Assembly (NCBI GenBank): GCA_944548615.1
Contig: OX155957.1
Span: forward strand, 7,601,597-7,665,596
Length of the DNA stretch: 64,000 nt
Direction: 5' to 3'
Source: Micropterix aruncella
Lineage: Eukaryota > Arthropoda > Insecta > Lepidoptera > Micropterigidae
Below are positions 20,648-62,557 of the stretch, piece by piece; position 1 is the first letter of the stretch, and every line of letters begins with the position of its first letter. Both the position numbers and the translations under genes were made by a program. The notes beneath the pieces are model-generated. The model saw nothing but the letters and a program-made list of their open reading frames with translations. It was not told where the DNA came from and did no database searches.

Positions 20648-21246
20648 GTCACTCCAGAGCTCCAATCAAAGTCATACTTGATTTTAAGTTGCCCCAGTTG
20701 ACGTTGCTAAACATACTTCAATTATAACACCACTGGTTACTATTTTTGTTGTTAATTGTATTTTATTATTCTAAAATAATAGTTTTTCTAAGAGATAAAT
20801 AGTGCATTACATCATTTGCTCCTAGATTATACGTTCTAACTGGAAGAAACCTAATTATATTGTATTCATTTACAACAATAAAGTCTCGTTTTTCTATGGA
20901 ACCCTGTCTTTTACTACACAAATAGCAGGCTATCTTTATTACATACATGTATTTTACAACAAACGTCTCAGTATTTCATGAAACTATTTTTGTCGTAATA
21001 ACCAATTAACATGAAATTTTATGTAGTAAAAGCCACACTAACTCCTAAACTATAACACATACTCTTTTCTGGTTTACATGAAATAAAAGTAATCAAAATT
21101 TTATGAAAATATTTCACAGATATATCAATATAACTATAAAAACTATAAAAATACAATAAAAAACACGTGTACTTTTTTGTTTTTTGCCCCTCCTGTAAAG
21201 TAGCGTTTTGGCTTTTACGACAAGTGTTCCGCAAAGGGTCGATATT

Positions 21247-21857
21247 TTTATGTTAGGATAATTTTTCATGTCTTCACTAAGGGAATTATATAATTTTGGG
21301 GCTATGTAGAATATATGTCTCTGGGCAAATGTTGTCCTGACTGACGGAATTATATAATTGATACTCGCGGACATTCTTGTGTTCAGATTGTTTTGAGTTC
21401 GGGCGTGGTCATCTCTAGATTTGTAGAATGCAAGAAGCGCTTGCTTAATGAATACCTGTTTAGCTGATAGCACATGGGATTGGGAAAATAACAAGGCAGA
21501 TGGATGACGCCGGTTTTTCCTTTGAATTACTCTCAATAATAATTTCTGCGCTTTTGTCAATCTATCCAGATTATCATTAGTAGTAGCGCCCCATGCCGCG
21601 ACTCCGTAGGACAAAATACTCTGACACAAGGCCATGTATACCATTCTTATGGTTGTTTTGGACAGAATGTTACGCAGCCGAAGAAATACATAAACCAGCT
21701 TTCTAATTCTCGAACTCAAATTTGCAATCTGATTTTCCCAACATAGCTTCTCATCTACCGTTATGCCTAAGTAGGAGACTGTTGCAGATTTGCTTAATTT
21801 AGTACATACACATCTATTCTTATCCAAGCATTTGTCGGTATGAATGGCAAATGTCAA
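21247..21857 (-). pseudogene. Jockey-like ORF2, region after the RT catalytic domain
   Basis: The minus frame from 21857 reads SYLGITVDEKLCWENQIANL (the conserved block after the RT palm), ALCQSILSYGVAAWG (the thumb region ending in W-G) and FAQRHIFYIAPKLYNSLSED. In this family it should be preceded by the RT catalytic YxDD box, which is absent. The frame runs on into the transposon terminal repeat at 21246, so the last 40 or so residues of the long open frame are not its own. The real continuation is at 18196-18118. Confidence 0.9.
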
Positions 21858-21891
21858 AACTTTTCAATGCAATTGAAAAGTTTTGACATTT
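21849..21891. repeat. Perfect 20-bp-arm hairpin at the retrotransposon 5' junction
   Basis: The arms AAATGTCAAAACTTTTCAAT (21849-21868) and its exact reverse complement (21872-21891) are separated by GCA. The left arm overlaps the truncated start of the retrotransposon frame. Confidence 0.95.
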
Positions 21892-36051: not shown

Positions 36052-37650
36052 AACATCAGTTCAGAGGGCATGGATTGGAGATGTAATTGGTCCGGTAATA
36101 TCACGAAATATTTCCAGAGTACGATTGTTTATCACTTCGCTAGTAGTAGGGTGGTGCAATAACGATCGTACATTCCGCATTCGTGTTCCTGGCCGTGGGA
36201 TATGTGCAGCCTCATGTGACTTGTATGTACATGCAATCACGCTTTCTCTATCATATTTAATTAACTAACACGAGCGAAGCATCGGTTCAGAGGGCATGGA
36301 TTGGAGATGTAATTAGTTCGATATTATCATAAAATATTTCAAGAGAATGATTGTTTATCGCTAGTAGTAGCATCACTATGCATTGTGTCAGTCAATACTA
36401 TGCTATGGTATTATAGGATGGGGCGGTTGTACAAGGTCCACTCTACACCCTCTAGAAGTAGCCCAAAAATGTATATTAAAAATAATCGCACGTCAACCGT
36501 ATCGATTTCCGTCAGACACTCTTTACATTCAGTCCGAGGTTTTGGACGTAAGACAGCTTTATATTCGCATTGCCCTAATATACAATAAAAATAAAATGAC
36601 CCCTTATAATCAACAACAAGTTGGAAAGGCGAGAGCAACAAAAACTGGTGATATGATGGTGCCAAGAACTTACACAGCATTTGGCCAACGCCATTTCACG
36701 TTCATTGGCCCTAGAATGTACAACAATGTTCCCGAAGCAATTAAAAGTAGTGAGAAAACATCCACTTTTAAAAAATCACTAACCGATTGGTTGTTGGAGG
36801 TGGGTAGGGACGGTTTAGGGAATATGCTGACTTGTATTTTGAATGATAGTATTTAGTATTTAGTTTTTACCATGAAAATTTTAAGTGACTATTATAGCTA
36901 TGTAAACGTTATATCAATATGTAATTCATTTATATATGTATATTATTTTAGTTTTTATTTTTATTTATTTTGGTTTTATTATTATTTTCGTATACATATA
37001 TGTATGTGTATGTGTGCATATATGGATATATATTTTATCTATAGATGTATATGAGTATCTATATTTGTATAGGCGTAAATATTTATAGTTTCATATTTGT
37101 CGATTTAAAAATAAGTAGGTACTAACATATTTTATAGTTTAAGTTGACAGTGCACACTTAATAACTAATCATTAAAAGTCTGCCTTAGAACAAACCTAGG
37201 CCTAGTTAGGCGACTGTGTCAAACATTAAAAATAATGTCGCATCAATTTCTTGCTAACATCTTACTTACAAATATGACATTAATTGTTTACTAGATGTGT
37301 TACTAACTAAATAAATAAATGCTATAACTATCGTACATTCCGCATTCATGTTCCTGTCCGTGGGATAGGTGCAGCGTCATGTGACCTGTGTGTCTCGCTT
37401 CTCGTCAAATCTCGCTTTCTCTATCATCTTGAATTAACTGGCACGAGAGAAGCATCAGTTCAGAGTACATGGATTGGAGATGTAATCGGTGTGATAATAT
37501 CACTAAATATTTCAAGAGTACGATTGTTTTTGAAATTCACTAGTAGTAGGGGAGTGCAATAACTATCGTACATTCCGCATACGTGTTCCTGTCCGTGGAA
37601 TAGATGCAGCCTCATGTGATAATATGCACATGCAATCAGGCTTTTTGAAT
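36052..37650 (+). repeat. Tandem array of about 230-bp units, split by a retroelement
   Basis: Three units start at about 36053, 36281 and 37455, each with CAGTTCAGAG or CGGTTCAGAG, then ATGGATTGGAGATGTAAT, CTAGTAGTAG, ATCGTACATTCCGCAT and GTGCAGCCTCATGTGA or a close variant. The middle unit is cut at about 36373 and resumes at about 37321 with CTATAACTATCGTACATTCC. The units differ at many positions, so the array is not new. Confidence 0.85.
36374..37320 (+). mobile_element. Jockey-like non-LTR retrotransposon, 5'-truncated, inside the array
   Basis: The open frame to 36856 reads CQSILCYGIIGWGGCTRSTL, LYIQSEVLDVRQLYIRIALI, FGQRHFTFIGPRMYNNVPEA and FKKSLTDWLLE: the thumb and C-terminal end of ORF2. 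It matches the order seen in 21857-21247. The 3' UTR has GCCTTAGAACAAACCTAGGC then CTAGTTAGGC at about 37183-37210. The tail is AAATAAATAAATG at 37308-37320. ATGC lies at both edges and may be part of a short duplication. The frame has no stop, so this copy is fairly young or lucky, but it lacks the whole N-terminal two thirds. Confidence 0.85.
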
Positions 37651-52400: not shown

Positions 52401-52446
52401 ATGTTATAGTAATGCCTTTGTAGGTAATCATGTTATAGTAATGCCT
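52401..52446 (+). repeat. 29-bp tandem unit, target of the LTR element
   Basis: ATGTTATAGTAATGCCTTTG begins a 29-bp unit at 52401. A second unit starts at 52430 and is cut after ATGTTATAGTAATGCCT by the LTR element. It resumes at 62034 with TTGTAGGTTGCC after the duplicated GCCT. Confidence 0.85.
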
Positions 52447-55401
52447 TGTAAAGAAAATTTTTACTACTACTTTTTCTTTATCTGCGAGATATGATTTTAT
52501 AATCTATTTCTCGATATGTTATGTTACGATGCTTTCAATGTCTATTGGCCCACCACATTGGGACGGCATATGTCAGAGAAGATTTTACTATATCTATTTC
52601 AATATGTTACCACCATACAACGACAGTGATAATATTACCTTCAAGAGGATAGGCTTCCAATACCTTGCCTAATAATTTCCCTCCTTGTATTTACTTCCTC
52701 AATGAAACAAATCTTCTCCAATTAATAATCCATATATTAAACCAAAATGCATATTTAAACAATTAAAATTATAACTTTTTGTATTTTAGTTTAAGAACTA
52801 TTATTGTGAATTATATTTATAATAATGAGCGCCTAATTCACCACAAAATATTTACAATTTATTCTTTGAGTTATTTTCGATCGATTATTTGTCGATGACA
52901 ACAATGGCTGCGTTCAGTCGATTGTTAATAAAATAATATTAATAATGATAATGCATGAGTTTAAATCTCCGCCGTGAAATTCGACAATTAGATTCTAATC
53001 CTTTATTTATTTAAATGTGTTCAATGTCAATTTATATTGAAACATGAATCGTAATGTTTACATACAACAATAAAATTACTTATAAACTAACACACTGTCA
53101 ACTAGTCGATGGCGTTCCAGTGATATAATGAATTTAAATGACCGCAGTCGCTAATGCCCGATATAAACTACGACCTGGTTACCATTCAGTCCACTGAATG
53201 TCCATATGGTTTTCGTTCTATTATTTCTATTAATACTATTCCCTCCCCGTTATCCTTGAAACCCCATCGATCAGTCAAAACAAAAAAAACCTTAATATAA
53301 TCTACAATTTTCCTTATCTTTAATCTTATTCTAACATTCAGTATAATTCGAATGTTTCCTTAACTAGTTTCCAAATTAAAAGCACATTATATAATGGCTG
53401 GTGTCTGAATCAACGGAGTTAGCAAAGGCTAACTCTCTTCCAAATTAAATAATAGTCTGACTAGAGGTTTACCTCGTAGAACTATCAACGACTATTCATA
53501 TCAATCGATGTTAAATGCCTCATTTTTAGTTAACGTGCAAATATGTAGAAATCACGCATTTACGTTACTACTACTTATCATTTCCAATAATTTCCAACAA
53601 ACCCCACAAAACTCTAATATTTATAACCCCAAAAAAATATACAACAATGACAATATTGGTTGCTAGCTTCGGCCCAAATAATTAAATAACGCCAGCTTCG
53701 GCAAAATAAACTTACATATTTTTAGTACATCTTTGCCGACAATGACTCTCGGCTATACTTCCCCGTATTTACAGCTGCATTCACATTATGCACTTATAAC
53801 TAATGTCAATTTCTTCGATGCGTGTCGCCTTTCTAGAAATCTGCCATCACCAAGAAGAATGTCTCTTTAGAAACCTCAACCGCTTCGCTATCTTACTGCA
53901 ATTTCAAGCCGTTACTGCATTCTCATCAATGTTTTTCCCTTGTTTCGCCGCTATTTTATACACCTCCGAAGACGTTCGCAATGTTGTGATCTCAATCTGA
54001 CGTTTCAGTTTGATTTGTCCGCCATCTTTGATATAATTTTCGTATTTCAACCCGACGAATCTCGTACTTCTATTTTATATGAAATGTTGGATTTTTTACA
54101 GGCCAACTCGCGTAGCTCTCTCGATTCACATTTTTAGCACTGGATTTTCAATTATTTGTTCGTTTTTTAGTGTCTTTGTAAAAAGCGCCTCAATGACGAG
54201 TGCGATAAAGCATTTCTGTGATATTCGATCTGCTCACTTTATACGAATTTAAATGAACTGGGCACTAAGATGCTTCACAGCATCTCAGTGCCCTTATTTT
54301 AAACTGTTTATTCTCACATCTGAGCCCCAAGATATGCTTTTCTTTCCCAAACTTTCGCAGCTTTAGAGCGTGCAACTAAAATTTCTTAATGGATGCCGGA
54401 AGCAACACGTCCATCCCTTTTATAACACCCTTATCGATGTGACCTTTTTTTGATAATTTAACCCACAACTATTGACTAATCAATCATAAAACGATCTGAT
54501 TTATCTATTTTTTTGTTAAATAACGCTCTGCCACATTGGTAACAAACGAATTTCTTAACGATAATTCGTGCTTCTAATTCTACAAATGATTTTAAGTATT
54601 TATTTTACGTATTATTAGAAATTGATGTTTCATATTCGGCGGGAAATCATCATACTTTGACTTAACCTTGCCGCCTTTCTTGCGCGTCGTTTCCGCTTTC
54701 ACATTTGAAAGCGAAATAATATAACTATTTTATTTCAATTTTATTTATTGATAGTATTTTTATCTAGTAATTCCTCTATTTTAATTACGTGTTTCTAAAT
54801 TTCCTCATTTTAACTATTAAATTTTATTTTGACTGGCAATTATCTGGTGATAATTTCTTTTGATTTCATTAATTCGGCTTTCTTCCATCGATGTCGATTA
54901 TGTTTTCCAATTTCTCTTAATAATAAATTAAATGTTCTTCAAATGACTTTATCAATATTGCTATTAAATTCTCCCATAATTCCTACTATTTAATAAACCC
55001 CTTTTATATTTCTTTGAAAAAACCAATCGGTCGACTCTTTAAGACCATAAACATGCTTCTATTGTCTATTTGTCAATCGTTGAATTTTACGTCGATTTTT
55101 CGTAAAAATCTCAAAATATGCTAATTTCTTGCCAAATATTCCTGATTGTCTATCTTTAAACCCCTAATGATGTCCTTAACTCTCAAAAACCCTCAAAACC
55201 CCTTTATTTATGTGACGCTGGCACTGCACTCTATAGTTTAGCAACTGACATTCTTCATCTGTCAAGTTTAGTTCCTAATTAAATCGCTAGATGTCACTAT
55301 GATCTTTTTAAAGTACAATTTAATTTTAAAAATTCGATTAATCTATTTCCGGTTAGCTTAGAGCTGCTAAGCGATCATGTGATGATTTTCAGATCATTAC
55401 A
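52447..55401 (-). repeat. 3' LTR (2955 bp) with divergent end
   Basis: From 53001 to 55401 it matches 59631-62029 almost perfectly. I saw one 2-nt indel near 53480 and one substitution at 53734. From 52447 to 53000 it is longer and diverged, yet the outermost 17 bases (TGTAAAGAAAATTTTTA) are shared. At 52548-52568 it holds a second primer-site-like sequence, followed at 52571 by TGTCAGAGAAGATTTTA, a variant LTR end. The twin 65-codon frames at 53803-54137 are the same as those in the other LTR and are probably noncoding. Confidence 0.9.
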
Positions 55402-55417
55402 ATACCCCCTCCCAAAA
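55402..55417 (-). other. Polypurine tract
   Basis: On the element strand TTTTGGGAGGGGGTAT sits directly upstream of the 3' LTR start TGTAATG. This is the expected site for plus-strand priming. Confidence 0.85.
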
Positions 55418-55490
55418 TCTCAGCTTGCCCTCAAGCAATCATATCACATATCTTTCTTGTTATCTGTTCAATCTCCAATAACATTGATGA

Positions 55491-55738
55491 TGTTTGTAAT
55501 ATAATATTAATGTTAATAATTTTATGGAAATAACTATGTAACTCCTACGATATGTTTGTACTATAATGTCAATGATAATAGTTTATGTTTAATTCACGTA
55601 CCTTTACGATATGTTTTGTGCTATATGTTAATTATAATATTTTACGTTTAATTCACGTGCCTTTACGATATGTTTTGTACTATAATGTTATGATAATATT
55701 TTACTTTTAATTCTCGTACCCTTACGATATGTTTTGTG
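55491..55738 (-). repeat. Tandem repeats near the polypurine tract, four units of about 60 bp
   Basis: On the plus strand each unit begins TGTTTGTA or TGTTTTGT and ends with a variant of CTTTACGATA, with TTTAATTCACGT between. The units are imperfect. They lie 75-340 bp from the 3' LTR. Confidence 0.85.
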
Positions 55739-57469
55739 GCTTGCCTTCCCTCTTCAAGTCTATAATTTCTATCTTGTTTCCATATAATACCAATCTCCTA
55801 ACCCAGATCTTTTAATGATAATACTTTTAATATAATTTCTAACTTTCTCCTCTATATCTCACCTCAATAATATGATACCTATAATAACAATAATGACGAA
55901 GATTCCAAACACTCCTGTTGCAAATTTTAAAATTTATATAATATATTCCAACTTCTCCTCCTCTCTTTCGCTTCAACATGCGTCCGCTCAATTAGGAAAT
56001 AAACCCGAGTCCTCGACCATGTCTCCACCTACTTATTCTGTTCTATCGACCAATCTATAAATAATCTCAATACATCAATATAATAATTATAATATTTCTC
56101 TCCGTTGCAAAATTTAAATTGATTCCGTTTATTTCTTCTCCGTTCACCCACTCCGCTCAATTAGGATTTCTCCCGAGTCCTCGATGGTGAACATTTTAAC
56201 TGTCTAACTCTTCAAAAAAAAATAGTTTGAATATGCCTAAGTCAGAACAATGCACTTGAACAGGCTCTGGTCGTCCCTTAATGTTCTAGATTTAAAAAAA
56301 ATCGTGACATTGTCCCAACCAGTCGCATAGTAAGTTTTTATTTAATATAGTATGCTATTTCACGCTGGGCTTGTCCTTCTGCTATTTACTTAGACACAAT
56401 CTCAAGTTAGATAACCTGACGATTGTTAATAGGTTCTTCACTAGTCTATTGTTTGTGATTTTAACGTACACTGTATATGGTTTCTAACTCTCATTCGTTA
56501 TTTCAGAATTTGGAAACTGAATTTATCCTTTCACCGCCTTGCATACCTCCCACGTTCACAGCGCCTTTCATTCTATCTTCATACCAAAATCAATCCCCTC
56601 CTTCATCACAACTTATGTTGGTTTACTAATTAACAAATGTATTTATCGTCCTTCTTCTCTCACCCTCCTGGATCGCTACTATTTATCTCCTTCATAACAT
56701 AAACTAAATCAATATCCGGCCTATTCTAATTTCGCAACACCATAATAACCCCCTTGGTGCATGTAACCATAATGCCACCTTAATAATAATAATCCCATTG
56801 GGTATCTGAGCTCCTCCCTGTCGAATCTAGACCATATCCGACTCTGGGTGTCAACTCGTCCAAAAGCGTAGACCTGATCAGGGTCACGCGTTGAGGTGCG
56901 ACCTCAACCTTGCCGAGACCTCCATATATACTCCCTCGCAAGTTACCAAATACAAAACAAAACCATGGACCCGAGCAGTGGCTCCAACTCCGAAGACCGC
57001 CCACTTCAGATAAAAATTCCCATAATATTATAGTCGCTCTAAAAATTGGCGCTATTTTTCGATTCTAATTTCTTCATCCCGCTCTAAAATAGCGAGACGT
57101 CGACAATACCACCAAATATTCTATACCAAATAACAATATTAATATGACTCTTCATTCATCTTATAGTCGCTTCCTATATAGCACTATAACTCAATTCCAA
57201 AAATATATTATATTTTATAATAATTATAATAATGATTTTAATCTGGCCCTATACAGTCTCAATAATATAACGATCAACCAACTTTATCAATAACAATAAT
57301 CCATCGACTTTACTAATAATACTTTGGAATCTTCTCTCCAATATAATAAATCGTACCCCGATACTGCTTTGCCATTTAGTTCAACAACAAAAACTTATTA
57401 CACTAATGAGATTCCTAAACGTGTTCGCTTGTATTTCTTCGCTTTAGGTAGGAATGATTGGACAACAAG

Positions 57470-57530
57470 TTGTAGGTGATTAGGATAGGATTTAGGATAA
57501 GATAGGATAGGATAGGAAAGGAATACTTGT
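57470..57530. repeat. GATAG-rich minisatellite 1
   Basis: AGGATAGGATTTAGGATAAG leads into several GATAG units (57477-57522). A second tract of the same type is at 57930-58010. Confidence 0.85.
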
Positions 57531-57924
57531 TGCTTAAAACGAAGAGATTCAAACAACACAACGCTCTCTTCGACATAACTCTTCCCCAATTTTGCAAAAC
57601 AATACCACTCCACTAGATACCCAAATGAAAAAAAACTGTCAGCTTATTAACAATATTTTACAACCCAACGATTTCACGAGGTGCATTCTTCCATACATAT
57701 ACGTATCAAATGGATAATATGTTTAGTAAATGTAACTGTATGCTATATATATATGCAAAATAATGTGTGATTCTAATGTGAAAAAATTAAACTATACTGC
57801 TCAACTAAACGTGTAAGCTAATATGTATTGTAATTAAAATATTTCTGATTTATTGTATACTGCTTTTGGTGTATGGCATTAATGATTTGTTGCTATTAAT
57901 ACTTTGGTAATGGAATAGAAATAA

Positions 57925-58012
57925 GGAATGTGATAGGATAGGTAGTGTATGATAGAATGGTATGATAGGAATGTGATAGGCTGATGGATAGGATGATAGG
58001 ATAGGATTTCTA
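57925..58012. repeat. GATAG-rich minisatellite 2
   Basis: Degenerate units of GATAGGA and TGATAGAATG, the same composition as the tract near 57500, about 400 bp away. The frames here on the minus strand (57879-58193) are an effect of the repeat. Confidence 0.8.
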
Positions 58013-58435
58013 ATCTATTACTAGAAAGGAACAGGATAATGATACTATCTGTAATGTAATTTATAACTAGAAAAATGATGAAATCTAATGTTTGATATAT
58101 CGTGTTAAAATAATTTATTATGTTGGTATAATAATAATACAATACATACACAAGAACACACACCCCGCTACAATCAATAACTCTGATATTCAAAATAATC
58201 TGCTGGTTATTCTCTCAATAAAATAATAATAACTGTAATGACAGCCAATATAATAATATTATAATGCTATGACAACCACAAAACATACCATCTTAAAAAA
58301 CTGTGAGTTTTTTAATACTCCCAATAATTTATTGAGCTTCTATAACTAATCACTCAACCGATAGAACCGTAAGGTTCTTTAATCACCCCTTACTAATTTT
58401 TTACCATATCTTTCATGTGGCATCGCCCTATGGCT

Positions 58436-58867
58436 TTACCTTCCGATTTTATATATAAGTAAGTATTTTAAGTATGTTTTACTAAGTATGTATTTTAAAC
58501 GTCGGCAAACGTCCTCATATTTGATATCTATATCCAATTCTCCTATAATATTCTGTATCGTACCATCCGCCGACATCAATTGTATATTATTGCATTTGTT
58601 ATCAAACGCACAACCCTGAAATAATGTTATATATTTTCTCCCTATTATATTAACAGAAGATCCTGTATCTACTAATGCTTTTAATTTAAAATTATTTAGC
58701 CTTACATAAATATAAGGTATCTGATCCATATCATTACTATTTAGGGTATTATTAAAAATGCGAACCGACGACCCCCTCCCAGCCATCGAGTTCTCTATTC
58801 GTATTTTATTCGAGATATATCTCTCTCCAGCCTTCGTTTTTTTCGATGACGAAGCTGTTTGAGACAT
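58436..58867 (-). CDS. Truncated retropepsin, only coding remnant of the LTR element
   Basis: A 143-codon minus-strand frame whose ATG lies about 610 nt after the primer site. Residues 1-45 are Ser/Lys-rich and match nothing I know. From about residue 50, IPYIYVRLNNFKLKALVDTG begins an aspartic protease of the retroviral/Ty3 type. The catalytic D-T-G-S is followed by SVNIIGRKYI, and QLMSADGTIQNIIGELDIDI is the flap-side half. The second conserved hydrophobic-hydrophobic-G (ILG) segment that should end the domain is missing; the frame stops at Y-K-I-G-R. Gag, which should precede it, is absent. Enzyme activity is doubtful because the fold is incomplete. It might be read as part of the packaged RNA only. 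Confidence 0.8.
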   Translation of the reverse strand: MSQTASSSKKTKAGERYISNKIRIENSMAGRGSSVRIFNNTLNSNDMDQIPYIYVRLNNFKLKALVDTGSSVNIIGRKYITLFQGCAFDNKCNNIQLMSADGTIQNIIGELDIDIKYEDVCRRLKYILSKTYLKYLLIYKIGR

Positions 58868-58879
58868 TATGATATCTAT

Positions 58880-59470
58880 GTCTATTCTTAATTTATTTGT
58901 CGTATTTAATTTATTTTATTTTAATTTAAAATAAATTTAATTAATTTATTTTATTTATTTTTATTTTGATTCAAAATAAATTTAATTTATTTTACTTTTT
59001 ATTTAAACGAATTTATTTTATTTTATTTTATTATTGATTAAACGAATTTAATTATTTTTATTTTTATTCAAAGCAAAAGGTTGACGATTGCTATCGTGCC
59101 AAAGGTTATTATCCGCGGCGTCCTGATTACAATTATTTTAATTTATTTTAATTTCAGCCAAATTCTTAATTAAATCAATTACCAATCAAATTTGTTTATT
59201 TTTTATTTTAAACTATTCTTATTCCCGAGGTACTATTTTAATCACCGATTCAATTACGACGATTGCAGTCAATATGTGTACATAATGTACAATAACATTA
59301 AATTATGTAAATAGGCAGATTTCCAGAAACAACACACATATACAATATATCAACAATTCGCAATGCTAAATATACAGTTATATCACACGATTCATGTTTC
59401 TATATTTTTTATTTATTAAATGCCCAAATTACGATCGATCGAAATAATTTACTATTTATTTTATTTAGAA
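58880..59470. other. AT-rich leader of the LTR element
   Basis: Long TTTATTTTATTT runs and no frame between the primer site and the protease ATG. A Gag gene would be expected here and is not visible. Confidence 0.6.
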
Positions 59471-59478
59471 TCTATCAA

Positions 59479-59500
59479 GGCCCCACACGTTGGGACGCCA
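59479..59500 (-). other. Primer binding site, tRNA-Lys-like
   Basis: On the element strand it reads TGGCGTCCCAACGTGTGGGG, two bases after the LTR end. It resembles the complement of the 3' end of insect tRNA-Lys (TGGCGCCCAACGTGGGGC), with small differences. A related but altered copy lies at 52548-52568. Confidence 0.8.
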
Positions 59501-59502
59501 TT

Positions 59503-62029
59503 TGTAAAGAAAATTTTTAATTCTTTAATTATAAACTTATTTTCGGTCGATTGTTAAAAAAATAATAATATTAATACGAATGGCATGTGTTTAATACGAT
59601 GCACCAAAATTCGATAATTGGGTTCTGGTGCTTTATTTATTTAAATGTGTTCAATGTCAATTTATATTGAAACATGAATCGTAATGTTTACATACAACAA
59701 TAAAATTACTTATAAACTAACACACTGTCAACTAGTCGATGGCGTTCCAGTGATATAATGAATTTAAATGACCGCAGTCGCTAATGCCCGATATAAACTA
59801 CGACCTGGTTACCATTCAGTCCACTGAATGTCCATATGGTTTTCGTTCTATTATTTCTATTAATACTATTCCCTCCCCGTTATCCTTGAAACCCCATCGA
59901 TCAGTCAAAACAAAAAAAACCTTAATATAATCTACAATTTTCCTTATCTTTAATCTTATTCTAACATTCAGTATAATTCGAATGTTTCCTTAACTAGTTT
60001 CCAAATTAAAAGCACATTATATAATGGCTGGTGTCTGAATCAACGGAGTTAGCAAAGGCTAACTCTCTTCCAAATTAAATAATAGTCTGACTAGAGGTTT
60101 ACCTCGTAGCTATCAACGACTATTCATATCAATCGATGTTAAATGCCTCATTTTTAGTTAACGTGCAAATATGTAGAAATCACGCATTTACGTTACTACT
60201 ACTTATCATTTCCAATAATTTCCAACAAACCCCACAAAACTCTAATATTTATAACCCCAAAAAAATATACAACAATGACAATATTGGTTGCTAGCTTCGG
60301 CCCAAATAATTAAATAACGCCAGCTTCGGCAAAATAAACTTACATATTTTTAGTACATCTTCGCCGACAATGACTCTCGGCTATACTTCCCCGTATTTAC
60401 AGCTGCATTCACATTATGCACTTATAACTAATGTCAATTTCTTCGATGCGTGTCGCCTTTCTAGAAATCTGCCATCACCAAGAAGAATGTCTCTTTAGAA
60501 ACCTCAACCGCTTCGCTATCTTACTGCAATTTCAAGCCGTTACTGCATTCTCATCAATGTTTTTCCCTTGTTTCGCCGCTATTTTATACACCTCCGAAGA
60601 CGTTCGCAATGTTGTGATCTCAATCTGACGTTTCAGTTTGATTTGTCCGCCATCTTTGATATAATTTTCGTATTTCAACCCGACGAATCTCGTACTTCTA
60701 TTTTATATGAAATGTTGGATTTTTTACAGGCCAACTCGCGTAGCTCTCTCGATTCACATTTTTAGCACTGGATTTTCAATTATTTGTTCGTTTTTTAGTG
60801 TCTTTGTAAAAAGCGCCTCAATGACGAGTGCGATAAAGCATTTCTGTGATATTCGATCTGCTCACTTTATACGAATTTAAATGAACTGGGCACTAAGATG
60901 CTTCACAGCATCTCAGTGCCCTTATTTTAAACTGTTTATTCTCACATCTGAGCCCCAAGATATGCTTTTCTTTCCCAAACTTTCGCAGCTTTAGAGCGTG
61001 CAACTAAAATTTCTTAATGGATGCCGGAAGCAACACGTCCATCCCTTTTATAACACCCTTATCGATGTGACCTTTTTTTGATAATTTAACCCACAACTAT
61101 TGACTAATCAATCATAAAACGATCTGATTTATCTATTTTTTTGTTAAATAACGCTCTGCCACATTGGTAACAAACGAATTTCTTAACGATAATTCGTGCT
61201 TCTAATTCTACAAATGATTTTAAGTATTTATTTTACGTATTATTAGAAATTGATGTTTCATATTCGGCGGGAAATCATCATACTTTGACTTAACCTTGCC
61301 GCCTTTCTTGCGCGTCGTTTCCGCTTTCACATTTGAAAGCGAAATAATATAACTATTTTATTTCAATTTTATTTATTGATAGTATTTTTATCTAGTAATT
61401 CCTCTATTTTAATTACGTGTTTCTAAATTTCCTCATTTTAACTATTAAATTTTATTTTGACTGGCAATTATCTGGTGATAATTTCTTTTGATTTCATTAA
61501 TTCGGCTTTCTTCCATCGATGTCGATTATGTTTTCCAATTTCTCTTAATAATAAATTAAATGTTCTTCAAATGACTTTATCAATATTGCTATTAAATTCT
61601 CCCATAATTCCTACTATTTAATAAACCCCTTTTATATTTCTTTGAAAAAACCAATCGGTCGACTCTTTAAGACCATAAACATGCTTCTATTGTCTATTTG
61701 TCAATCGTTGAATTTTACGTCGATTTTTCGTAAAAATCTCAAAATATGCTAATTTCTTGCCAAATATTCCTGATTGTCTATCTTTAAACCCCTAATGATG
61801 TCCTTAACTCTCAAAAACCCTCAAAACCCCTTTATTTATGTGACGCTGGCACTGCACTCTATAGTTTAGCAACTGACATTCTTCATCTGTCAAGTTTAGT
61901 TCCTAATTAAATCGCTAGATGTCACTATGATCTTTTTAAAGTACAATTTAATTTTAAAAATTCGATTAATCTATTTCCGGTTAGCTTAGAGCTGCTAAGC
62001 GATCATGTGATGATTTTCAGATCATTACA
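59503..62029 (-). repeat. 5' LTR (2527 bp)
   Basis: Plus-strand ends TGTAAAG and ATTACA form the TG...CA boundaries. It is flanked outside by GCCT and inside by the primer site. The first 128 bases (59503-59630) differ from the 3' LTR; the remaining 2.4 kb are nearly identical to 53001-55401. Confidence 0.9.
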
Positions 62030-62182
62030 GCCTTTGTAGGTTGCCATATCATTTTAGTATCACTAATACAAGACAAGGCAATGTTACGTTATGGCTCTTG
62101 TTTCTTGAAGTTTCTATATTATATTCTTAATTATTTTAACGACAATAGGTGTATAAAATCGAAGACTATCGCGGTTGTTTGA

Positions 62183-62502
62183 CATTATAAATAGGATAGA
62201 AAACGATTTTACCGCGTGAAATTTGTAGGACCCGACGTTTCGGTGACGTTGCAGCCGCCGTTGTCTAGGGTAGACTGAAAAGCTGTCAGTCCGTTGTTTT
62301 GCGGGTAGGCCGCAAACCGCGAGCCCGGCCCCCCACCACCGTTATAACCTACGCAGTGGCGGCAGCGGTTTGCGGCCTACCCGCAAAACAACGGACTGAC
62401 AGCTCTTCAGTCTACCCTAGACAACGGTGGCTGCAACGTCACCTCAACGTCGGGTCCTACAAATTTCACGCGGTAAAATCGTTTTCTATCCTATTTATAA
62501 TG
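62183..62502. mobile_element. Near-perfect palindrome, 138-bp arms
   Basis: The arms 62183-62320 and 62365-62502 pair with four mismatches by my count, around a 44-nt spacer. The outer part is AT-rich (CATTATAAATAGGATAG) and the inner part GC-rich (TTTGCGGGTAGGCCGCAAAC with its inverse). GACAATAGGTGTA occurs outside both arms (62141-62153 and 62502-62514), but not at equal distance. It fits a foldback transposon. The 75-codon frame at 62299-62526 is palindrome-derived. Confidence 0.9.
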
Positions 62503-62557
62503 ACAATAGGTGTACTATGTAATTAAAGTATAACATAGGTATCACTCCAAAACAGAC

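Follow-up and report, generated by a model that had tools for sequence, protein, structure and literature searches.

The locus considered here raises the question of how a retrotransposon without a polymerase can have moved recently, and whether it belongs to a family of its own or is a single deleted copy. The element, of 9583 bp, occupies positions 52447–62029 on the minus strand of the window, which is the whole stretch of 64,000 nucleotides of Micropterix aruncella DNA that was analysed. An earlier note on this DNA had described a GCCT duplication, TG...CA ends of the long terminal repeats (LTRs), a primer site and a polypurine tract, all of which were confirmed. The two copies of the target-site duplication (TSD), GCCT, lie at 52443–52446 and 62030–62033; the primer-binding site (PBS; 59479–59500, minus strand) adjoins the right LTR and the polypurine tract (PPT) TTTTGGGAGGGGGTAT (55402–55417, minus strand) adjoins the left LTR, which gives the minus-strand orientation. 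In the sense of the element, the 5′ LTR is 59503–62029 (2527 bp) and the 3′ LTR is 52447–55401 (2955 bp), both on the minus strand, and together they make up 57% of the element, in agreement with the claim of more than half. The host target consists of a 29-bp unit and the opening half of another (52403–52446), the rest of which follows at 62034–62047. When the flanks are joined, two tandem 29-bp units alike at 26 of 29 positions are obtained, with the element exactly inside the second; because the flanks rejoin into this interrupted tandem, both outer ends were made by one integration. Tandem Repeats Finder listed no repeat in the joined 240 flank bases.

The internal core (55402–59502, minus strand, 4101 bp) had been claimed to lack reverse transcriptase (RT) and integrase, and no Pfam match to RT, RNase H, integrase or gag was obtained in any of its 17 minus-strand frames of at least 35 aa. 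Its longest frame has 159 aa (58436–58915, minus strand; 4 of 500 shuffles contained one as long) and gives weak retropepsin matches under the curated cut-offs (PF13975, E 0.0016). The partial retropepsin described as the sole recognisable coding piece is in fact a fusion of the start of gag with the protease, across the first of two deletions. No relatives of the fusion frame were found in the protein database at E ≤ 0.001, its AlphaFold model from the single sequence reached a pLDDT of 31, which is too low for use, and IMG/VR gave no match by protein and none by the exact LTR start. Another repeat protein of the window had no match in the protein database, ARAGORN found no tRNA within the window, no Rfam family was matched, and single-sequence RNA folding of one 181-nt core piece gave a z of −1.13.

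The origin of the core becomes apparent from autonomous relatives in the same genome, which the earlier note had proposed to look for among full-length elements with the same LTR. Of 14 sampled relatives, two (L034 and L042) have retained both an open gag frame of 415 aa and an open pol frame of 1062 aa. The L034 frames match gag, protease, RT, RNase H, H2C2 and rve in Pfam, and the order PR-RT-RNaseH-IN together with a Gypsy-type gag places this parent in Ty3/Gypsy (Metaviridae). When 150 out of 2450 RT candidates were scored, at least 21 copies (query locus included) matched the parent at 98–100% identity, and 14 of these lie in frames of at least 1000 aa. The core is not the separate noncoding piece that had been supposed; it combines the leader of the parent with the start of gag, the protease and the 3-kb 3′ region, which two deletions brought together. 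On the minus strand, the first deletion, by which about 1.14 kb of gag is gone, left a scar at 58803–58811 (good to a base or two), the protease segment common to the parent follows at 58481–58802, the second deletion, of about 2.8 kb of pol, left a scar at 58444–58480, and the 3′ region common to the parent extends over 55402–58443, with tandem repeats at 55546–55737.

The PBS of L034 holds the 18-mer TGGCGCCCAACGTGGGGC, which we take to be the PBS for tRNA-Lys1,2; the window PBS, presumably also tRNA-Lys-like, differs from it by extra bases. LTRs of about 1–2.6 kb and a 4-bp TSD, as in Osvaldo elements, are found here as LTRs of 2527 and 2955 bp and a TSD that is exact in 11 of 12 family elements (3 of 4 bases in C31; in C36, C6 and C7 the target bases occur at a second place too, and the copy after an LTR-like end was taken). 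By analogy in LTR size, PBS and TSD, the parent appears to be Osvaldo-like. Culex elements of the Osvaldo lineage are described with LTRs of 997–2055 bp, a PBS that is invariably tRNA-Lys and mostly a 4-bp TSD (PMC3286476), and the Isis-like element of Calliphora vicina, of the same lineage, has LTRs of 2577/2574 bp, a 4-bp TSD, gag and pol, and hence the size class of the parent; it is described as autonomous, with no mention of a derivative family formed by deletion or of relics in U5 (PMC3630058).

In the 1.08-Gb genome searched, the same core was found between the same LTRs at ten sampled loci (the window, L031–L033, L035, L036, L040, L041 and two arrays). The pol-side scar with identical filler is present at all ten and in 13 of 13 internal regions, the window's included and five of them from the two arrays; the gag-side scar and filler are the same in 11 of 13, L031 having an extra insert beside the scar and L036 a larger deletion. 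This shared scar, together with the open-frame parent, points to a double-deletion derivative of single origin. Such a core, being the parent minus two segments, could also be expected of a one-off deleted copy without a family of its own, and the earlier note had regarded a copy number of one, or gag-pol in most relatives, as the mark of such a copy. However, the same pol-side scar and filler recur at ten unlinked loci, TSDs and LTR pairs are separate at the tested loci, and pol is absent from 12 of 14 sampled core-bearing internal regions, so that a one-off deletion is already refuted and extremely improbable. The element is very probably a young copy of a non-autonomous LTR family derived once from an autonomous Ty3/Gypsy-type parent. 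Of the best 150 protease matches among 1732 candidates, a sample biased by ranking on likeness to the derivative, 130 lie in frames of 118–183 aa (some with internal stops), 12 in frames of at least 1000 aa and 8 in between, so that the derivative predominates in this sample.

The claim of recent movement is likewise borne out, because LTR pairs within elements differ by only 0–4 substitutions per 2.4 kb (9 of 9), as in young insertions. Between loci, LTRs differ by 30–68 substitutions per 2.4 kb (3 of 3 comparisons), and this contrast indicates that each copy goes back to a separate round of reverse transcription. Within this large family, LTRs are 94–98% alike. In the tree, two of nine inner branches are well supported and six are open; the 3′ region of the window element and of L032 groups with the autonomous L034 (support 98/96 and 95/96), a pattern expected from recombination between the derivative and autonomous classes.

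From the sequences, spread of the family may be pictured as follows. The derivative arose once, when two deletions took out most of gag, together with the whole RT-RNaseH-integrase part, of an autonomous element; it retained what is probably needed in cis, namely LTRs, PBS, leader, PPT and 3′ region. The proteins of open-frame parent copies may package, copy and integrate the derivative, which was presumably amplified in trans. The earlier note had held that a parent must supply the enzymes; an intact parent does exist in this genome and may supply them in trans. RNAs from different copies may be packaged together, and such joint packaging would lead to recombination while they are copied, so that the U5 regions of the two LTRs may derive from different RNAs and U5 may lengthen when a tail with an additional PBS/leader piece is incorporated.

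The label LARD-like is right with respect to function. The element has PBS, PPT, TSD and long LTRs, the core lacks gag-pol products, the 159-aa fusion being a predicted frame only, and this core is conserved in a multi-copy family; the short LTRs and almost absent internal domain of TRIMs are not seen, the LTRs being 2.5–3 kb and the core 4.1 kb long. Such elements are less confined to grasses than had been supposed, since published annotations list LARDs in honey bee (301 entries in the table, amounting to 3.10% of its genome), in whitefly and, together with TRIMs, in bumblebees, and 38 LTR families without coding sequence are reported from Culex (PMC3286476). LARDs such as Sukkula are described as a conserved group with no protein products in the core and assumed mobility in trans (PMC7215508), as here, where in addition the parent is identified and the core has arisen from it by deletion. 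Similarly, the 38 cqUNK families of Culex have PBS, PPT, TSD, tandem repeats and LTRs more than 98% alike without coding sequence; however, no master copy was detected for them and the tabulated LTRs reach at most 931 bp (PMC3286476), whereas here the parent is known and the LTRs are longer. Because a single genome offers a non-autonomous family at ten sampled loci, its parent and the deletion scars, mobilisation in trans becomes directly testable in an animal.

The two LTRs of the window element had been said to differ at two sites over 2.4 kb, which is right for this part (one substitution and one 2-bp indel; two substitutions and one gap when the border column is included). The likeness does not extend to the full length, a point overlooked in that description: the LTRs match up to the last AATAAA, after which the terminal 127–128 bp of the 5′ LTR and 553–554 bp of the 3′ LTR are unmatched. 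In the 5′ LTR, U5 is short (A type; 59503–59630, minus strand, about 128 bp) and has a close relative in L022, with 1 difference in 89; in the 3′ LTR it is long (B type; 52447–53000, minus strand, about 554 bp) and is the usual tail in many other copies. This long tail contains a relic of an LTR end plus PBS (52548–52587, minus strand) with a score of 38, a value reached by 0 of 2000 dinucleotide shuffles, whereas the rest of the element reaches 20, and such units are present in 24 of 30 LTR tails. U5 ends are unequal in 5 of 12 elements on five contigs (C8, C36, C42, C24 and C44), with an exact TSD at all five; three elements, each with a TSD, are hybrids for the whole U5, and in C44, by direct comparison, 488 identical bases are followed by differences at 4 of the 10 final bases. 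The array on C44 has three LTRs inside one TSD, and that on C24 has three internal regions that differ at 0 of 4276 sites, with one gap. Mismatched U5 within one insertion is not predicted by the standard copying scheme, in which, as a rule, a single U5 serves as template for both LTRs, and so conflicts with that rule. This rule underlies LTR dating; LTR-calling software also relies on it, and such ends may be trimmed or missed.

We infer template exchange in reverse transcription, together with growth of U5 by capture of PBS and leader. A more specific reading, possible but somewhat less probable than not, is that the LTRs were non-identical at birth, the second jump having occurred at R and not at the PBS, and that reuse of a downstream PBS lengthened U5 toward giant LTRs. 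First-strand DNA primed on one packaged RNA would supply the 3′ LTR with the U5 of that RNA; minus-strand synthesis would then follow a second RNA, passing the unused PBS of this RNA and entering its U5 and R, the second jump taking place at R; and repeated priming at downstream PBS copies would add PBS/leader units to U5. The relic units within the LTRs thus offer a possible concrete route of LTR lengthening. Alternatively, the unequal tails may be younger than the insertion, if gene conversion or end-joining repair altered one LTR with another copy as template. One-ended conversion could bring in foreign U5, PBS and leader while retaining the TSD and the outer LTR end, B tails being common donors. 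Moreover, the A and B types stop matching at the very point where the LTRs part, so that any exchange between A and B copies, whatever its route, would have its break at this point, and the position is no independent evidence for exchange at R; for this reason later conversion, though rather unlikely, is rated only slightly less probable than the origin at birth. Conversion would, however, have to exchange U5 alone, three times, although foreign U3 patches would sometimes be expected; upstream of U5, the LTRs of C8, C36 and C42 (with 2, 0 and 4 substitutions, respectively, over 2.4 kb) are as alike as those of the six concordant elements compared in this manner (0–4), and the difference in C44 confined to its last ten bases would be an odd tract. 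In C24, the longer 3′ end could be an in-place deletion within the tandem array. The idea that break repair brought in the 3′ LTR tail, with the 5′ LTR of a foreign copy as its source, is weakened, the tail being the usual one of many copies, and is still a rival.

An assembly error between copies might be suspected in a large family with such similar LTRs, the arrays being hard to assemble, but is improbable in view of the empty-site repeat at the window and because tails are unequal at five loci, each on a different contig and each with an exact TSD. Ectopic crossing-over between two elements would yield an A-type 5′ LTR with a B-type 3′ LTR; yet the TSD would then be missing, whereas all three whole-U5 hybrids carry one and the window flanks rejoin into the 29-bp tandem, so that this explanation is already refuted for these loci and scarcely conceivable.

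Partial parallels to these processes exist. Family members of Onsen in Arabidopsis recombine, and most LTR recombinants fit a first template switch at R; that paper describes new copies ending in two identical LTRs, whereas U5 differs here (PMC5668417). Template-switch complexes described from Triticeae have three LTRs inside one TSD, like the C44 array, and two internal regions, compared with three in the C24 array (PMC1950507). In cqgypsy_1 of Culex, an abnormal PBS region lies between 26-nt copies of LTR sequence; the extra piece there is a tRNA dimer likened to Twin SINE, in contrast to the PBS-plus-leader relics inside LTRs found here (PMC3286476). Searches of the open-licence literature with a few wordings gave, for LTR retrotransposons in which the PBS is duplicated or present several times, a single unrelated genome-editing paper and, for strand transfer between molecules, the Onsen paper.

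A captured host gene was also considered, because the core at 56884–57027 matches Pfam Hairy_orange (E 6.1e-5; 23.7 bits against a cut-off of 25.3) and, in the PDB, HES-1 (E 0.1). None of the six orange domains above cut-off in the genome is alike in DNA (best blastn E 0.27); one, L052, gives a protein match of 23 aa (tblastn E 7e-5, with six short pieces searched), and the frame varies among several copies. The match was judged to be due to chance, even though it overlaps the part of the core where conservation is highest, 125 invariant bp at 56798–56922 (minus strand; 11 other copies compared).

The LTR retrotransposon at 52447–62029 (minus strand) belongs to a non-autonomous family that is a derivative of a gag- and pol-bearing parent. 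The window spans 7601597–7665596 of contig C8. A search of the genome (1.08 Gb, 742 contigs) with its LTR body gave 41 matches of 94–100% identity (40 of 825 candidates scored), and 16 internal stretches were sampled. The core of the window element lies between LTRs in 12 of these (L031–L033, L035–L041, L043 and L044), L037–L039 being a single array on contig C24 and L043–L044 a single array on C44; the core of L040 carries a 1.45-kb insert. Internals L034 and L042 contain the core and additional DNA of approximately 1.14 kb at one site and 2.8 kb at another. This DNA completes a 415-aa gag frame and a 1062-aa pol frame, and in L034 the frames have profile matches to gag, protease, RT, RNase H, the H2C2 zinc-binding domain and the integrase core. 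In L045 and L046, which form a single wide locus on C84, likeness is limited to LTR parts. The pol-side deletion scar of the derivative and its filler are identical in all 13 internals, the window counted, and the gag-side scar is shared by 11 of the 13, the exceptions being L031, where an additional insert adjoins it, and L036, where the deletion is larger. Because the same filler occurs at unlinked loci, the derivative arose once. Several copies with one core, which the earlier note named as support for a real family, are thus present, and the full-length gag-pol relative that it proposed to seek is represented by L034 and L042. The derivative is a LARD by function. Its host, which the same note considered unusual for a LARD, is no surprise, because LARDs are commonly annotated in insects (PMC4028053, PMC9143410, PMC4414376). 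By LTR length, TSD and, putatively, PBS type, the parent resembles the Osvaldo lineage (PMC3286476, PMC3630058).

The sole standout in the core of the window element is a 159-aa frame, a length reached by 4 of 500 dinucleotide shuffles. Retropepsin profiles match it with scores below their curated cut-offs. The partial retropepsin reported previously is a fusion frame, in which a gag start runs into the protease. Gag, RT, RNase H and integrase were absent from a Pfam scan of all 17 minus-strand core frames of at least 35 aa. The longest core run invariant in 11 other copies, 125 bp at 56798–56922 (minus), exceeds the maximum of 104 in 500 random placings and is possibly a cis signal; it has no Rfam match, and the RNA fold z of 181 nt around it is −1.13. 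A short frame at 56884–57027 (minus) matches the Hairy_orange profile (E 6.1e-5, under the cut-off), and no DNA likeness of this frame to six host orange domains was found. Elsewhere in the window, frames at 21114–21863 (minus) and 36371–36856 (plus) presumably resemble C-terminal parts of LINE proteins; neither had an RT match in a Pfam scan, and a protein database search with the former returned no match.

When the gag-start/protease fusion protein was used as a genome query, 150 of 1732 candidates were scored, in a ranking that favours the derivative; 130 of these protease matches lie in frames of 118–183 aa, 8 in frames of 215–884 aa and 12 in frames of at least 1000 aa. The match starts at query residues 1–10 in some and 18–23 in others, and there is therefore probably more than one type of gag-side deletion. 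With the RT piece of L034, 150 of 2450 candidates were scored and fall into three discrete identity classes, each with many equal-scoring copies: 98–100% (21 matches, 14 of them in frames of at least 1000 aa), 85–86% (32) and 63–65% (97). The parent subfamily accordingly has at least 21 RT-bearing copies. The classes are several related autonomous subfamilies, which perhaps had recent bursts, and intact parent copies exist in the genome, none being singled out here.

The window element has GCCT on both sides. In element sense, its 5′ LTR (59503–62029, minus) is followed by a PBS starting at 59500 (minus), and its 3′ LTR (52447–55401, minus) is preceded by a PPT (55402–55417, minus). With the element removed and one GCCT kept, the rejoined host flanks form two 29-bp tandem units that are alike at 26 of 29 positions, the second spanning the junction; 15 of 5000 shuffles gave a right-to-left flank match equalling the real one. 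This arrangement, together with GCCT, indicates that both outer borders come from one integration. Close to the element, on the outside, is a MITE-like hairpin (62179–62506), an inverted repeat with 142-bp arms that are 96% complementary and spaced by 44 bp. Within nine elements, paired LTRs differ over U3–R by 0–4 substitutions per approximately 2.4 kb, whereas LTRs of different loci differ by 30–68 (three comparisons); each copy therefore comes from its own recent reverse transcription and not from segmental duplication. An exact 4-bp TSD, singly a weak test that gains weight from its position directly after an LTR-like end, was found in 11 of 12 elements (named by contig: C8, which is the window element, C36, C34, C6, C35, C42, C24 at 6.58M, C7, the C24 array, C21 and the C44 array); in C31, 3 of 4 bases are alike. 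In a 12-row tree built from a 1.77-kb portion of the 3′ region (the window, nine derivative internals with one row retained per array, L034 and L042), the window and L032 group with autonomous L034 (98/96, 95/96) and L042 lies elsewhere, 6 of 9 inner branches being open. This grouping and the common scars point to recombination between derivative and parent.

The LTRs of the window element are alike up to the last AATAAA and then diverge into U5 tails of approximately 128 bp (A, 5′ LTR) and 554 bp (B, 3′ LTR). Many copies ordinarily end in B, and several others in A; the A tail of the window differs from LTR locus L022 at 1 of 89 sites and from its own 3′ LTR at 26 of 89. Whole tails were compared in ten elements, and separately in C21 and C44. 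They are equal, in sequence and to within a base in length, in C34, C6, C35 and C24 (6.58M), with 0 differences in 549–554 bp, in C31 (0 differences in 706, one gap) and in C7 (4 differences in 597); in C21 they are equal over 552 bp. U5 ends are unequal in 5 of 12 elements, in three kinds. The entire U5 is exchanged in C8 (127 vs 553 bp), C36 (142 vs 553) and C42 (155 vs 664); in the C24 array (145 vs 649), the 3′ LTR continues via a PBS and 382 bp of leader, and another LTR end follows ahead of the TSD; and in C44 the extreme end alone is affected, 488 identical bases being followed by 4 differences in the last 10.

In the textbook scheme, as given in PMC1950507, both U5s are copied from one, and unequal tails need another path. 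The simplest that we see would start with transfer of strong-stop DNA from one RNA (X) to the 3′ end of another (Y). The minus strand would continue along Y, past its unprimed PBS, into the U5 and R of Y, and the second jump would pair at R, so that the 5′ LTR would retain the Y tail beside the Y leader and the 3′ LTR would carry the X tail. The main rival is conversion of the tails after insertion. The break in C8, C36 and C42 lies 0–24 bp past the last AATAAA and might coincide with the putative end of R; because A/B likeness ends at this same place, the position of the break alone does not identify the route. LTR swapping was reportedly described in soybean by Du et al. in 2010. Recombination at the R site among family members is already known (PMC5668417).

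Tandem LTR-core units are frequent. The C24 array (C24:25611508–25634523) has four LTRs and three internals, with 0 of 4276 sites differing and one gap, and the C44 array (C44:9061694–9078183) has three LTRs and internals that differ at 1 of 4085; each has a TSD at its outer ends. Among the 150 protease matches, 25 are arranged as 11 rows, each made up of two or three matches on one strand with equal scores and a period of 6.8–9.4 kb, the LTRs between members being inspected on C44 alone. Besides the C24 and C44 arrays, ten rows are of this type, with units that are identical or nearly so. Three-LTR complexes inside one TSD in Triticeae have been attributed to template switching (PMC1950507), and unequal crossing-over fits the present arrays as well.

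In 30 LTR loci, the PBS pattern was found in none of the U3 parts (2.4 kb each) and in 24 of the tails (760 bp scanned, not counting the one immediately upstream of the shared leader), although the loci are related and the tails hence do not amount to 24 independent events, a unit at +430 being common to B tails. Most tails have one such relic, and L021, L026 and L027 have three. Relics also lie within both LTRs of five concordant elements (C34, C6, C24, C7 and C31). In C35, an 18-base site, which we take to be a tRNA-Lys PBS, follows the 5′ LTR, and another PBS is located 58 bp downstream in the leader, while the 3′ LTR ends at the base that corresponds to the 5′ LTR end; in C7, the counterpart of the first site sits within both LTRs. 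C35 and C7 look like the alternative results of priming, which may start from either the upstream or the downstream site, and we infer that U5 lengthens when the downstream PBS is used.
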